Notes under the pieces: model-generated | The model's input: only the letters and a program-made list of their open reading frames with translations | What the model was told of the DNA's origin: nothing | Database searches by the model: none | Assembly: GCF_002205795.1 (NCBI RefSeq) | Contig: NZ_NIUY01000001.1 | Coordinates: 806,001-870,000 of the forward strand | DNA from: Chryseobacterium sp. VAUSW3 | GTDB lineage: Bacteria; Bacteroidota; Bacteroidia; Flavobacteriales; Weeksellaceae | Length of the DNA stretch: 64,000 nt | Direction of reading: 5' to 3' | Shown: one piece after another, positions 9,822-46,487 of the stretch | Numbering within the stretch: position 1 is the first letter of the stretch | Layout: each line of letters opens with the position of its first letter | Made by a program: the position numbers and the translations under genes

Positions 9822-10158
9822 AAATTCATTATTAATGTTCCAAATATAAAATTATTTTTTAAACAAATGTTAATTTATCATAAATTATTTTAAACAACTT
9901 CGGGCTTATGCCATCTGTTTAATTTTACTTTTACAATATTTTATTAAAAATGCCTGTAAAAACAGACTTTTCTGCTGAGAATTGATCTCGGCTTACAGCA
10001 TTTATTTAAATTAAATATTACCATGGAAACCATAACAATTACACATTTTTTGAATTATATGATTTACATAATAATATTAAAAATAATGCATTATTCATAA
10101 CAGATGTTGAATTTATATGAAAAATACTAATCCTTCCATGAAATTCTCAAAGGCATGG
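9822..10158. other. AT-rich intergenic stretch, no gene seen
   Basis: Between the divergent FadL-type and ricT genes. Very AT-rich, no open frame of useful length, no hairpin followed by a T tract, and no repeat in common with other gaps. It should hold the fadL-like promoter, which I could not place with confidence. Confidence 0.5.
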
Positions 10159-41313: not shown

Positions 41314-41329
41314 TGTTTCACGTGAAACA
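41314..41329. promoter_or_regulatory. parS partition site 1
   Basis: TGTTTCACGTGAAACA, a perfect 16-bp palindrome identical to the well-known chromosomal ParB-binding parS site. It is 30 nt upstream of the mnmG ATG in a short gap. Confidence 0.85.
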
Positions 41330-41358: not shown

Positions 41359-43221
41359 ATGATCAACGAGATATACGACGTAATCGTAGTCGGCGCCGGC
41401 CACGCAGGTTGTGAAGCAGCGGCTGCTGCAGCCAATATGGGATCTAAAACCCTTTTGGTTACAATGAATATGCAGACCATAGGTCAAATGTCCTGTAATC
41501 CTGCCATGGGCGGCATCGCCAAAGGACAAATTGTACGCGAAATTGACGCTATGGGCGGATATTCCGGTATTATTGCGGACAAATCAGCAATTCAGTTCAA
41601 GATGCTGAATCTCTCCAAAGGGCCTGCCATGTGGTCTCCACGAACCCAAAATGACCGAATGTTGTTTGCGGAAGAATGGCGTATTGCCCTCGAAAACACA
41701 CCAAATCTTGATTTCTTTCAGGATATGGTGAAAAGCCTCATCATCGAAAACCATAAAGTTACGGGGGTTGTAACTTCATTAGGAATACACATTAAAGCTA
41801 AATCTGTAGTATTAACCAACGGAACATTCCTAAACGGTTTAATTCATGTTGGTGACAAACAACTTGGAGGAGGAAGAATGGGCGAACCCAGAGCTTTCGG
41901 GATTACAGAACAGCTCGTATCATTAGGTTTTGAAGCAGGAAGAATGAAAACAGGTACCCCGCCGCGTGTTGATGGCAGGAGCCTTGATTACTCTAAAATG
42001 GAAGAACAAAAAGGAGATGAAAATCCGCAGAAATTCTCCTATTCCCATACGCCAAAACTTACAAAACAGCTAAGCTGTCACATTGTTTATACCAACGAAA
42101 CGGTTCATGAAATATTGCGAGAAGGATTCGACAGAAGCCCTATGTTTAACGGAACAATACAGAGTATTGGGCCAAGATACTGCCCAAGTATTGAAGACAA
42201 AATCAACCGTTTTGCAGAGCGGGAACGACACCAGCTTTTTGTAGAACCTGAAGGCTGGCGCACGGTAGAGATTTACGTTAACGGCTTCAGCTCCTCTTTA
42301 CCTGAAGATATTCAGATTAAAGCGATGCAGCACATCCCAGGATTCCAAAATGTAAAAGTTTTCCGCCCCGGATACGCTATTGAATACGACTATTTCCCTC
42401 CTACTCAACTTCATCACACCCTTGAAACAAAACTTATAGAAAACCTTTATTTTGCCGGTCAAATCAACGGTACAACCGGTTATGAAGAAGCTGCCGGACA
42501 GGGACTAATTGCAGGAATTAATGCACACAACAAAGTTCACGAAAAAGAAGAATTTATTCTCAACCGTGATGAAGCTTACATCGGCGTTCTTATCGACGAT
42601 TTAATTACTAAAGGAACCGAAGAACCGTACCGTATGTTCACTTCCAGGGCCGAATACAGGCTGCTTTTAAGACAGGATAATGCCGACATCAGATTAACTG
42701 AAAAGTCACATAAAATAGGTCTTGCTGATGAAAAACGTCTTAGAAACGTAGAAAATAAAATCGCCGCCAGTAATGAACTGGAAGAATATCTGAAATCTAC
42801 GTCTCTGAAACCCGGGATTATCAATCCTATCCTCGCATCCATTGAATCCTCTCCTGTCGATCAGGCATACCGCGCGTCGCAAATCCTTACAAGACCGAAT
42901 ATGACGCTTGAAAAACTGAGTGAAATTGATTTTATTGGTGAGAAAACTAAGGAATTTACAGAAGAAGCTAAAGAGCAGGCTGAAATCAATATCAAATACA
43001 AAGGTTACATTGAGAAAGAAAAAGAAAATGTAGCCAAGATAAACCGTTTGGAAACCATCAGAATTCCGGATGATTTTGACTACACTAAAATAGGTTCACT
43101 TTCTTCTGAAGCCAAACAAAAACTGAATAAAATTCAGCCCAAAACCATTGCGCAGGCAGCAAGAATCAGCGGCGTATCACCTTCAGATATCAACGTACTT
43201 CTTATCTATTTGGGCAGATAA
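41359..43221 (+). CDS. mnmG: tRNA uridine-5-carboxymethylaminomethyl modification enzyme MnmG
   Basis: FAD-binding subunit that with MnmE modifies U34 of tRNAs. The 620-residue protein has the dinucleotide motif VVGAGHAGCEAAAA, MSCNPAMGGIAKGQ, GRMGEPRAFGI, KTGTPPRV and the C-terminal GVSPSDINVLLIYL. In many bacteria this gene (gidA) sits beside oriC. Here it is bracketed by two perfect parS palindromes, 30 nt before its start and 22 nt after its stop. Confidence 0.97.
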   Translation: MINEIYDVIVVGAGHAGCEAAAAAANMGSKTLLVTMNMQTIGQMSCNPAMGGIAKGQIVREIDAMGGYSGIIADKSAIQFKMLNLSKGPAMWSPRTQNDRMLFAEEWRIALENTPNLDFFQDMVKSLIIENHKVTGVVTSLGIHIKAKSVVLTNGTFLNGLIHVGDKQLGGGRMGEPRAFGITEQLVSLGFEAGRMKTGTPPRVDGRSLDYSKMEEQKGDENPQKFSYSHTPKLTKQLSCHIVYTNETVHEILREGFDRSPMFNGTIQSIGPRYCPSIEDKINRFAERERHQLFVEPEGWRTVEIYVNGFSSSLPEDIQIKAMQHIPGFQNVKVFRPGYAIEYDYFPPTQLHHTLETKLIENLYFAGQINGTTGYEEAAGQGLIAGINAHNKVHEKEEFILNRDEAYIGVLIDDLITKGTEEPYRMFTSRAEYRLLLRQDNADIRLTEKSHKIGLADEKRLRNVENKIAASNELEEYLKSTSLKPGIINPILASIESSPVDQAYRASQILTRPNMTLEKLSEIDFIGEKTKEFTEEAKEQAEINIKYKGYIEKEKENVAKINRLETIRIPDDFDYTKIGSLSSEAKQKLNKIQPKTIAQAARISGVSPSDINVLLIYLGR

Positions 43222-43242: not shown

Positions 43243-43258
43243 TGTTTCACGTGAAACA
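43243..43258. promoter_or_regulatory. parS partition site 2
   Basis: A second perfect TGTTTCACGTGAAACA, in the 69-nt gap after mnmG. The surrounding bases extend the symmetry (GATGTTTCACGTGAAACATC, 43241-43260). Confidence 0.85.
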
Positions 43259-44243: not shown

Positions 44244-45434
44244 TTAACTGTTGATTGCTTTTACGCCAGGCAATTCCTTTCCTTCCAAACTTTCAAGCAT
44301 CGCACCTCCTCCAGTAGATACGTAACTTACTTTGTCATCATAACCAAACTGTTTTACAAAAGCAACACTGTCGCCCCCACCAACAAGTGAAAAAGCTCCG
44401 AGTTCGGTAGATTCGGCAATACTGTCACCTAAAGCTATAGTTCCAGCAGCAAAATTAGGCATTTCGAAAACTCCGATCGGGCCGTTCCATAAAATTGTTC
44501 TGGAATTCATAATTACATCATGGAAAAGAACTCTTGATTTAGATCCCGCATCCATTCCCATCCAACCTTCCGGAATATCATAAATATCTACTTCTCTTCT
44601 GTCTGCGTCATTACTAAATTCATCTGCAATTACAGCATCTGTCGGTAAAAATACCCTTACATTCTGCGCTTTGGCTTTTTCCAGAATTTCTAATGCCAGC
44701 GTTAATTTATCTTCTTCTAAAAGAGAATTTCCGATATGTCCACCCAACGCACGAATAAAGGTGAAGGACATTCCACCTCCGATAATCAAGTTATCGATAG
44801 CCGGTAAAATATTTTCTATAATTGTAATTTTGGTCGAAACTTTGGATCCTCCAAGAATAGCAGTAACTGGTTTTTCTCCATTTCCCAAAACTTTTTCTAC
44901 CGCTTCAAGCTCTTTGGCCATCAGTAAACCGAAAAATTTAGTTTCAGGGAAATATTCTGCAATTATGGCGGTAGATGCATGCGCACGGTGCGCTGTACCG
45001 AATGCATCATTTACATAAGCATCCGCATATTTAGAAAGTTTTTCAGCAAATTCCTTATCTCCTTTTTCTTCCTCGTTGTAGAACCTCAAATTCTCCAGCA
45101 ACAGAATTTCTCCAGGCTGAAGCTCTGAAGTCATTTCAGTCGCTTCATTCCCAATACAGTCAGCACAGAATTTAACTGTTCTCCTTAAAACCGTTTCTAT
45201 TTCACCTACGATATTCTTTAAAGAAAATTCTTCAGTTACTTTGCCTTTTGGGCGTCCGAGGTGAGTCATTAAAATCACGGAACCTCCATCATTCAGGATT
45301 TTATCAATGGTAGGTTTTACTGCCTGAATCCTGGTATTATCCGTAACTTTCAGATCGGCACTTTGAGGTACATTGAAATCTACACGCACCAATGCTTTTT
45401 TATCTTTAAAATTGAAATCGTTCACTGTTTTCAT
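44244..45434 (-). CDS. pgk: Phosphoglycerate kinase
   Basis: Glycolytic enzyme, 396 residues: transfers phosphate between 1,3-bisphosphoglycerate and ADP. The substrate motifs RVDFNVPQS and LMTHLGRPKG, the hinge region AILGGSKVSTK and the nucleotide-binding LVGGGDSVAFV with GAMLESLEG are present. A promoter TTTA-N17-TAAATTTG lies just upstream on the minus strand; the gene reads away from the candidate origin region. Confidence 0.97.
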   Translation of the reverse strand: MKTVNDFNFKDKKALVRVDFNVPQSADLKVTDNTRIQAVKPTIDKILNDGGSVILMTHLGRPKGKVTEEFSLKNIVGEIETVLRRTVKFCADCIGNEATEMTSELQPGEILLLENLRFYNEEEKGDKEFAEKLSKYADAYVNDAFGTAHRAHASTAIIAEYFPETKFFGLLMAKELEAVEKVLGNGEKPVTAILGGSKVSTKITIIENILPAIDNLIIGGGMSFTFIRALGGHIGNSLLEEDKLTLALEILEKAKAQNVRVFLPTDAVIADEFSNDADRREVDIYDIPEGWMGMDAGSKSRVLFHDVIMNSRTILWNGPIGVFEMPNFAAGTIALGDSIAESTELGAFSLVGGGDSVAFVKQFGYDDKVSYVSTGGGAMLESLEGKELPGVKAINS

Positions 45435-45459
45435 AAAAATCCTTTGTTTTTTAGTTTCA

Positions 45460-45488
45460 CAAATTTAAGATTTATTCACCTGAATAAA
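45460..45488 (-). promoter_or_regulatory. Promoter of pgk
   Basis: Minus strand TTTA (45485-45488), 17 nt, TAAATTTG (45460-45467), 25 nt before the ATG. Confidence 0.75.
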
Positions 45489-46016
45489 AATTTATTTCCC
45501 GCTAAAATTCCACAATCCCCGAAGACTCATTTTATCTACATTATATTCTTTTTTTAAAAGAAAGAAATGAATAGTGTTGTTGTAGAAGACGGATTTGTGG
45601 AGAAAAACACGCCTTTTAGTTCAACACATTTAGTTGAAGTTCAATTCATAAATGATTAACAATGCAAGTATTTGATTTTTAACGTTTATTAACGTTTATC
45701 AACATTTGTTAATAATTTTGCTACTCCGGCTTTCCTGAGAACCTTTGTATGGACAACTGTAGGAATTGATCACTGAAACTTTATTGAACATTCTTCTTCA
45801 AATTCCAAAAACATTTTCCAATAGGAAATAAAAACGGATAATAAAACCAAATGTTTTGAAGAGTTATCCACACCAATTCCGTGTTATCCTCACATGTTTT
45901 GTGGAATAGTCTTCTAAACCTACTTGCGCATCAGATTTTAGATTAAAATCAAGCTAAAAAGCGTTAAAAACATGATATTTAAAGCTTATAAAATCACTTC
46001 TTTCTATATATAATCT
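45489..46016. other. Candidate chromosomal replication origin (oriC)
   Basis: The longest non-coding, AT-rich gap, between the divergent pgk and rpiB genes. It has a perfect DnaA box TTATCCACA at 45864-45872; one-mismatch boxes TTATCCTCA at 45884, TTATCAACA at 45696 and, inverted, TTCTCCACA at 45596-45604; three direct repeats of 10 bp at 45681-45710; and an AT-rich right end. Two parS sites lie 2.2 and 4.2 kb to the left. No gene or terminator is seen in it. The assignment is inference. Confidence 0.55.
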
Positions 46017-46024
46017 TAAATTTG
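46017..46024 (+). promoter_or_regulatory. Promoter -7 element of rpiB
   Basis: TAAATTTG followed by TAGG, 31 nt before the rpiB ATG; no clear -33 TTTG. Confidence 0.5.
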
Positions 46025-46055
46025 TAGGAAATCTACCTTCTAATATCCTTTAAAA

Positions 46056-46487
46056 ATGAAAAAGATAGCCATCGCCTGTGATCATGCCGGTTTCGATTAC
46101 AAAGAAATTATAAAAAAACATCTGGAAACTCACTATGAAGTAAAAGATTTCGGTACGTTTTCCAAAGATTCTGTGGATTACCCTGATTTCGTTCATCCCA
46201 GTGCTAATGCCGTTGAGAGCGGCGAATGCGATTTCGGAATCCTGATTTGCGGAAGCGGCCAAGGTGTTGCAATTACAGCGAACAAGCATCAGCAGATCCG
46301 TTGCGCATTATGCTGGATGCCAGAATTGGCCGAACTTGCACGTAAGCACAACAATGCCAATATGATCGCGCTTCCGGCCAGGTTTATCGCCAGTGAATTA
46401 GCAGTTGATATTGTTGATAAATTCCTCGGCACTGATTTTGAAGGAGGTAGACATGAAAACAGGGTAGCAAAAATCTCGTGCTGCTAA
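46056..46487 (+). CDS. rpiB: Ribose-5-phosphate isomerase B
   Basis: Interconverts ribose 5-phosphate and ribulose 5-phosphate in the pentose phosphate pathway. The 143-residue RpiB/LacA-type protein begins IAIACDHAGFDYKE and has the catalytic Cys in ILICGSGQGVAITANK, with HNNANMIALPARF. It is followed by rnr after 31 nt. It is the first gene to the right of the candidate origin. Confidence 0.96.
   Translation: MKKIAIACDHAGFDYKEIIKKHLETHYEVKDFGTFSKDSVDYPDFVHPSANAVESGECDFGILICGSGQGVAITANKHQQIRCALCWMPELAELARKHNNANMIALPARFIASELAVDIVDKFLGTDFEGGRHENRVAKISCC

Follow-up and report, generated by a model that had tools for sequence, protein, structure and literature searches.

The 621-nt gap between pgk and rpiB in Chryseobacterium sp. 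VAUSW3 is, on comparative sequence grounds, very probably the origin of chromosome replication (oriC) in this Kaistella/Chryseobacterium-like bacterium and in its family. The gap lies in a 64,000-nt stretch (the window; contig C1:806001–870000) of a 2.63-Mb draft assembly in 10 contigs, and positions given without a contig name are those of the window. An origin function had been proposed for this gap in an earlier sequence-only reading, and support for it comes from its DnaA boxes, a pair of parS sites, a switch in GC skew, and conservation throughout the family. What is directly observed is that the gap has boxes that are conserved and is rich in AT, that two parS sites are near, that GC skew changes sign, and that dnaA is distant. 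As expected of an oriC, the region combines a box cluster above chance with an AT-rich and (by prediction) easily melted stretch; its place and boxes are conserved, a cumulative-skew minimum is found at an offset of 10–36 kb, and parS is nearby.

The gap extends from 45435 to 46055 and its flanking genes are divergent, with pgk (44244–45434) on the reverse strand starting at 45434 and rpiB (46056–46487) on the forward strand starting at 46056, so that the length of 621 nt and the divergent genes given in the sequence-only reading are correct. It was also described there as the longest gene-free AT-rich stretch; among the nine gaps of more than 250 nt between the hand-listed open reading frames (orfs) of the window no other is as long, its GC content is 28%, and only 0.1% of the 621-mers of the window are equally AT-rich. 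A shorter gap at 9822–10154 (333 nt) has a lower GC content (0.22); it contains four loose DnaA-like sites and lies near the lowest cumulative skew of contig C1. Orfs wholly within the pgk–rpiB gap have at most 33 residues, and one of 64 residues overlaps pgk. A search of positions 45200–46300 against Rfam with E-values up to 1 gave no match, and the gap is thus not associated with a known RNA.

By nearest-neighbour energies, the weakest 50-mer of the gap belongs to the 0.12% of the window with the lowest stability. A candidate unwinding element at 45529–45578 is among the least stable 50-mers, a second low-stability 50-mer that may have the same role is at 45669–45718, and the least stable of all (45974–46023) overlaps the putative rpiB promoter. 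The Bacteroidota −7 promoter element is TAnnTTTG, and TAAATTTG, which fits it, is present at both ends of the gap, as a putative pgk promoter at 45460–45467 (reverse strand) and as a putative rpiB promoter at 46017–46024 (forward strand). Of 79 gaps, 40 have a match to TAnnTTTG no farther than 70 nt from pgk and 66 have one no farther than 160 nt from rpiB, as raw counts uncorrected for chance matches.

All four of the DnaA boxes claimed previously are present: the exact consensus TTATCCACA at 45864–45872 (forward), which is the most conserved box of the gap; its tandem neighbour TTATCCTCA at 45884–45892 (forward); TTATCAACA at 45696–45704 (forward); and TTCTCCACA at 45596–45604 (reverse). One more site differing from TTATCCACA at no more than one position, the fifth, had not been named: TTATCTACA at 45532–45540 (forward). 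The site at 45696 is the first half of an inverted pair, the second half of which is TTATTAACA at 45707–45715 (reverse). When the gap is shuffled with its dinucleotides preserved, sites with no more than one mismatch to TTATCCACA average 0.2, against the five observed, a number that none of 1000 shuffles reached. With the looser motif TTWTNCACA (at most one mismatch) there are eight sites against a shuffle mean of 3.0, a count reached by 7 of 1000 shuffles. The gap also holds the best 600-mer of the window by this looser motif, with a small margin (eight sites versus seven at 34.2, 28.9 and 9.6 kb); the other gaps of more than 250 nt have four looser sites at most.

Box density was compared with other places in three genomes. 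In the 1.065 of 2.633 Mb of VAUSW3 that were scanned, the gap shares first rank by exact consensus with C3:65.6 kb, the promoter region of parAB, and four places outscore it by the looser motif. The homologous gap of C. indologenes AA5 contains three sites with no more than one mismatch, and six places in that genome score higher by the exact motif, as do two in Chryseobacterium sp. E1; by the looser motif the gap ranks first in both. A stronger box cluster elsewhere had been named as an observation that would speak against an origin here; it is seen weakly only, in that counts elsewhere equal or exceed that of the gap. Because other places score as high, box counts alone are insufficient proof, and we rejected box density as a sole criterion for the origin.

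Judged by RpiB, Kaistella and Chryseobacterium are the nearest named relatives. Of 80 related RpiB loci, 78 have a gap bordered by pgk and rpiB. The two exceptions, neither of which gave a gap, are L073, at a contig edge, and L056, which lacks pgk; in the latter, from Riemerella columbipharyngis, pgk is absent from the 6 kb examined before rpiB. The number of box-like sites is above that of the gap's own shuffles in 78 of 79 gaps, and at 73 of 79 loci all other 600-mers of the locus have fewer such sites than the gap. For column-by-column comparison, 65 gaps of 550–766 nt were aligned, excluding the 14 of 79 that are at least 800 nt long. A TTWTNCACA site with no more than one mismatch occupies the 45864 column in 62 of the 65 aligned gaps, the halves of the inverted pair are represented by sites in 44 (45696) and 42 (45707), and the 45596 and 45532 positions in 12 each. 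Relatives have further tandem boxes at about 45874 (30/65) and 45886 (33/65), as well as a conserved reverse-strand column at 45748–45756 (TTTTCCATA and similar; 50/65), at which the VAUSW3 letters fail the one-mismatch test. Most boxes are degenerate: just 33 of the 79 gaps contain exact TTATCCACA, and in a same-genus genome, G060, the main box reads TTATCAACA.

Nine relatives (L021, L027, L032, L036, L038, L040, L042, L043 and L057) have an orf of 488–541 residues inside the gap, and five others have a long gap with no such orf. All nine inserted orfs are between the boxes and rpiB, and in all 14 of the long or orf-bearing gaps the farthest listed forward site is 464–611 nt from pgk. Since the boxes stay on the pgk side when the gap is enlarged, the working unit probably corresponds to about 45435–45910 and is attached to pgk, with the stretch before rpiB tolerating insertion.

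Nearby parS sites were part of the original proposal, and two exact copies are indeed present, clustered nowhere else in the genome: TGTTTCACGTGAAACA at 41314–41329 and a second at 43243–43258. They stand just before and just after a forward-strand gene (41359–43221) that we take from its sequence to be mnmG (gidA), and are 4.1 and 2.2 kb from the gap. These are the only exact parS sites in VAUSW3, the next most similar (two mismatches) being at C1:48 kb and C1:960 kb. Exact parS is found in 63 of 80 related loci, several of which end before mnmG, and in 62 of these 63 it is within 50 nt of an mnmG match; eight of the 17 loci with no exact parS are from Epilithonimonas. Among 30 further family genomes, parS (at most one mismatch) is within 6 kb of pgk in 21; in the other nine it is 10–42 kb away (three), on another contig (four), or absent (two). 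Across the order, 20 of 119 genomes have exact parS and 11 of the 20 belong to this family; parS adjoins mnmG in eight of nine parS-bearing genomes from other families, and in one other-family genome (G051) it is 25 kb from pgk. This occurrence of parS next to mnmG in other families indicates that the parS–mnmG link is older than the pgk–rpiB site.

GC skew was determined from sampled 20-kb stretches and contiguous runs round the locus rather than from whole chromosomes, in VAUSW3 C1 and in the relatives E1, AA5 and G060, each of which is a single contig and the first two of which are complete. The sign switches at the locus in all four. On C1, 12 of the 15 stretches on the left of the window have negative skew, and five of the six from rpiB rightwards have positive skew; in E1, 9 of the 10 stretches on the left side of the homologous gap are negative and all 10 on the right side are positive. 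AA5 has the orientation opposite to E1: none of the 11 stretches that run from 5.16 Mb through the coordinate start to 2.43 Mb has negative skew, and seven of the nine at 2.70–4.86 Mb do; in both E1 and AA5 the opposite switch is about half a chromosome away. In G060 all seven stretches to one side of the gap have positive skew and 7 of the 12 to its other side have negative skew, and the sampled minimum falls in the stretch holding the gap. Third-position skew, computed over genes of both strands, is negative in 6/7 versus positive in 7/7 in E1, and on C1 it is negative in 9 of 11 on the left side and positive in only two of four right of the gap.

The cumulative minima are displaced to the mnmG side of the gap in all four genomes, by about 10–36 kb. 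Local minima are at 2,373 kb in E1 (gap at 2,384.5–2,385.1 kb) and at 5,150 kb in AA5 (gap at 5,138.1–5,138.7 kb), each 11–12 kb off; the G060 minimum is at 1,449 kb, with a nearly equal low at 1,438 kb and the gap at about 1,438.6–1,439.2 kb. The C1 minimum is at 816 kb, 36 kb from the gap (851 kb), in a broad trough (−4434 at 816 kb versus −4371 at 853 kb). If only the widely spaced AA5 samples are used, counting from coordinate 1, the minimum is at 281 kb. The GC-skew check suggested by the sequence-only reading is thus borne out by the sign switch, which occurs here in four genomes, with minima that sampled stretches and local runs place 10–36 kb to the mnmG side. Gene direction near the gap may shift a skew minimum: the window genes at 35.6–43.2 kb point towards the gap and those at 31.4–35.6 kb point away, and mnmG with the four genes before it (35.6–43.2 kb) would run against the fork. 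With offset minima, a broad trough on C1, and a box density that is not unique, the exact position of the origin is less fixed.

The single DnaA match of VAUSW3 (C1:81179) places dnaA 770 kb from the gap on the same contig, so the two are not adjacent. This accords with the earlier remark that oriC in this phylum is often away from dnaA, and with passages of a Prevotella intermedia study (PMC4755523), in which such origins are described as common in Bacteroidetes. The origin of chromosome I of P. intermedia is given there as about 0.5 kb long; it contains several DnaA boxes, coincides with a skew switch, and is away from dnaA (PMC4755523). The pgk–rpiB gap is similar as a multi-box stretch at a skew switch and not near dnaA; P. 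intermedia belongs to another class, and the likeness is one of description in those passages.

In the classical origins of E. coli and B. subtilis, DnaA boxes and AT-rich DNA share one gene-free stretch. The VAUSW3 gap likewise has boxes and AT-rich DNA together, with parS near as in B. subtilis, but it is not beside dnaA (770 kb) and its boxes are mostly degenerate; we make no claim of DnaA-trios, for which the sequences were inspected by eye only. Elizabethkingia is in the same family as Chryseobacterium. As set out in sections of one genome report, the oriC predicted by Ori-Finder in E. meningoseptica G4076 is 649 bp long, has AT-rich elements and three DnaA boxes with no more than one mismatch, and is far from dnaA (740 kb versus 2,613 kb; PMC8994065). 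In size, few-mismatch boxes, AT-richness and separation from dnaA it resembles the gap described here; it is a prediction whose flanking genes are unnamed in those sections, so identity with the pgk–rpiB gap is not implied. For Algorimicrobium (Flavobacteriaceae), parts of a further report place the origin at mnmG using Ori-Finder 2022 and GC skew (PMC12843772). Going by that account, mnmG is common to both as the parS-bearing neighbour in VAUSW3, and the difference is that the box-rich gap of VAUSW3 lies between pgk and rpiB, at a distance of 2.2 kb beyond mnmG. We found no paper naming this gap as an origin in the open-licence PMC literature, DoriC being outside the search; it adds a well-supported example to the known origins away from dnaA.

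If the gap acts as proposed, DnaA would bind the conserved 45864 box together with the adjacent tandem box and the two inverted sites at 45696 and 45707, and its assembly on the boxes would be followed by melting of AT-rich DNA nearby, presumably at one of the low-stability stretches. Helicase would then be loaded and two forks would depart in opposite directions, and ParB bound at the two parS sites flanking mnmG may move the new origins apart. Origins in Bacteroidota are for the most part predictions, located at a distance from dnaA, and a syntenic one that can be found by pgk–rpiB and parS in Chryseobacterium, Kaistella, Epilithonimonas and relatives would offer a fixed landmark for orienting genomes, estimating growth rates from sequencing depth, studying strand bias, and constructing replicating plasmids. 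Natural variants of the gap could reveal which boxes matter.

An origin close to the gap but outside it, within about 40 kb on the mnmG side, with the gap being a DnaA-binding neighbour, is improbable, and it is nonetheless the alternative with most in its favour. The skew minima are on the mnmG side in four of four genomes, parS flanks mnmG rather than the gap and adjoins mnmG in eight of nine loci of other families, and the Ori-Finder 2022 origin at mnmG in Flavobacteriaceae, as described in parts of that report (PMC12843772), would fit as well. Against this, the minimum can be displaced by gene direction, the gaps beside mnmG are just 130 and 69 nt long, other window gaps of more than 250 nt have no more than four looser sites, and the best box clusters listed in AA5 and E1 do not include the positions of the minima.

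That the gap is simply a divergent promoter region, with boxes that regulate pgk or rpiB or are there by chance, is more doubtful still. The flanking genes are divergent and there are promoter-like elements at both ends, but the numbers of boxes and their conservation, the parS sites, and the skew switch argue otherwise, as do the nine relatives in which orfs separate rpiB from the boxes. An origin on contig C3, at an inverted pair of exact DnaA boxes upstream of parAB (C3:66084–66114), seems hardly credible. The pair equals the gap in exact-consensus score and is widely conserved, and parAB is near oriC in some bacteria; yet skew is positive in five of five sampled stretches of C3 from 1 to 210 kb, with no switch, there is no parS with two or fewer mismatches at that place, and the short space between the genes has a T-run after it, which is a terminator-like feature.

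This C3 pair, with its T-run, is about 110 nt before parAB and consists of exact TTATCCACA and its inverse; in pairs of this type upstream of parA, the two are 12–14 nt apart. Among 20 family loci chosen regardless of the pair, 12 have an exact one 137–142 nt before ParA, and it is 107–112 nt before ParA in 25 of 30 loci cut from family genomes. Such a pair occurs somewhere in 49 of 80 family genomes, and a reversed control pattern in none. The inner stem is variable, in many cases without pairing, and most of the pairs have a T-run after them. The pair is possibly a terminator; the retention of the 9-mers and of the 12–14-nt spacing despite the variable stem is suggestive of a site for a protein rather than of a terminator alone, and the fixed 9-mers point to DnaA as the putative ligand. 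We tentatively suggest that the family has a two-part DnaA circuit, in which there are a pgk-linked origin with degenerate boxes and, as a separate strong element, an exact inverted pair 107–112 nt before parA that might tie parAB expression, or the level of free DnaA, to initiation. A shorter pair, TTATCCACATTTTTTTGTGGATAA, is present at C3:200859–200882 between convergent genes, beside a gene that is presumably uvrA. It was set aside in view of its convergent-gene setting and its resemblance to a two-way terminator; the same or a similar 24-nt form is present in several other genomes of the family.
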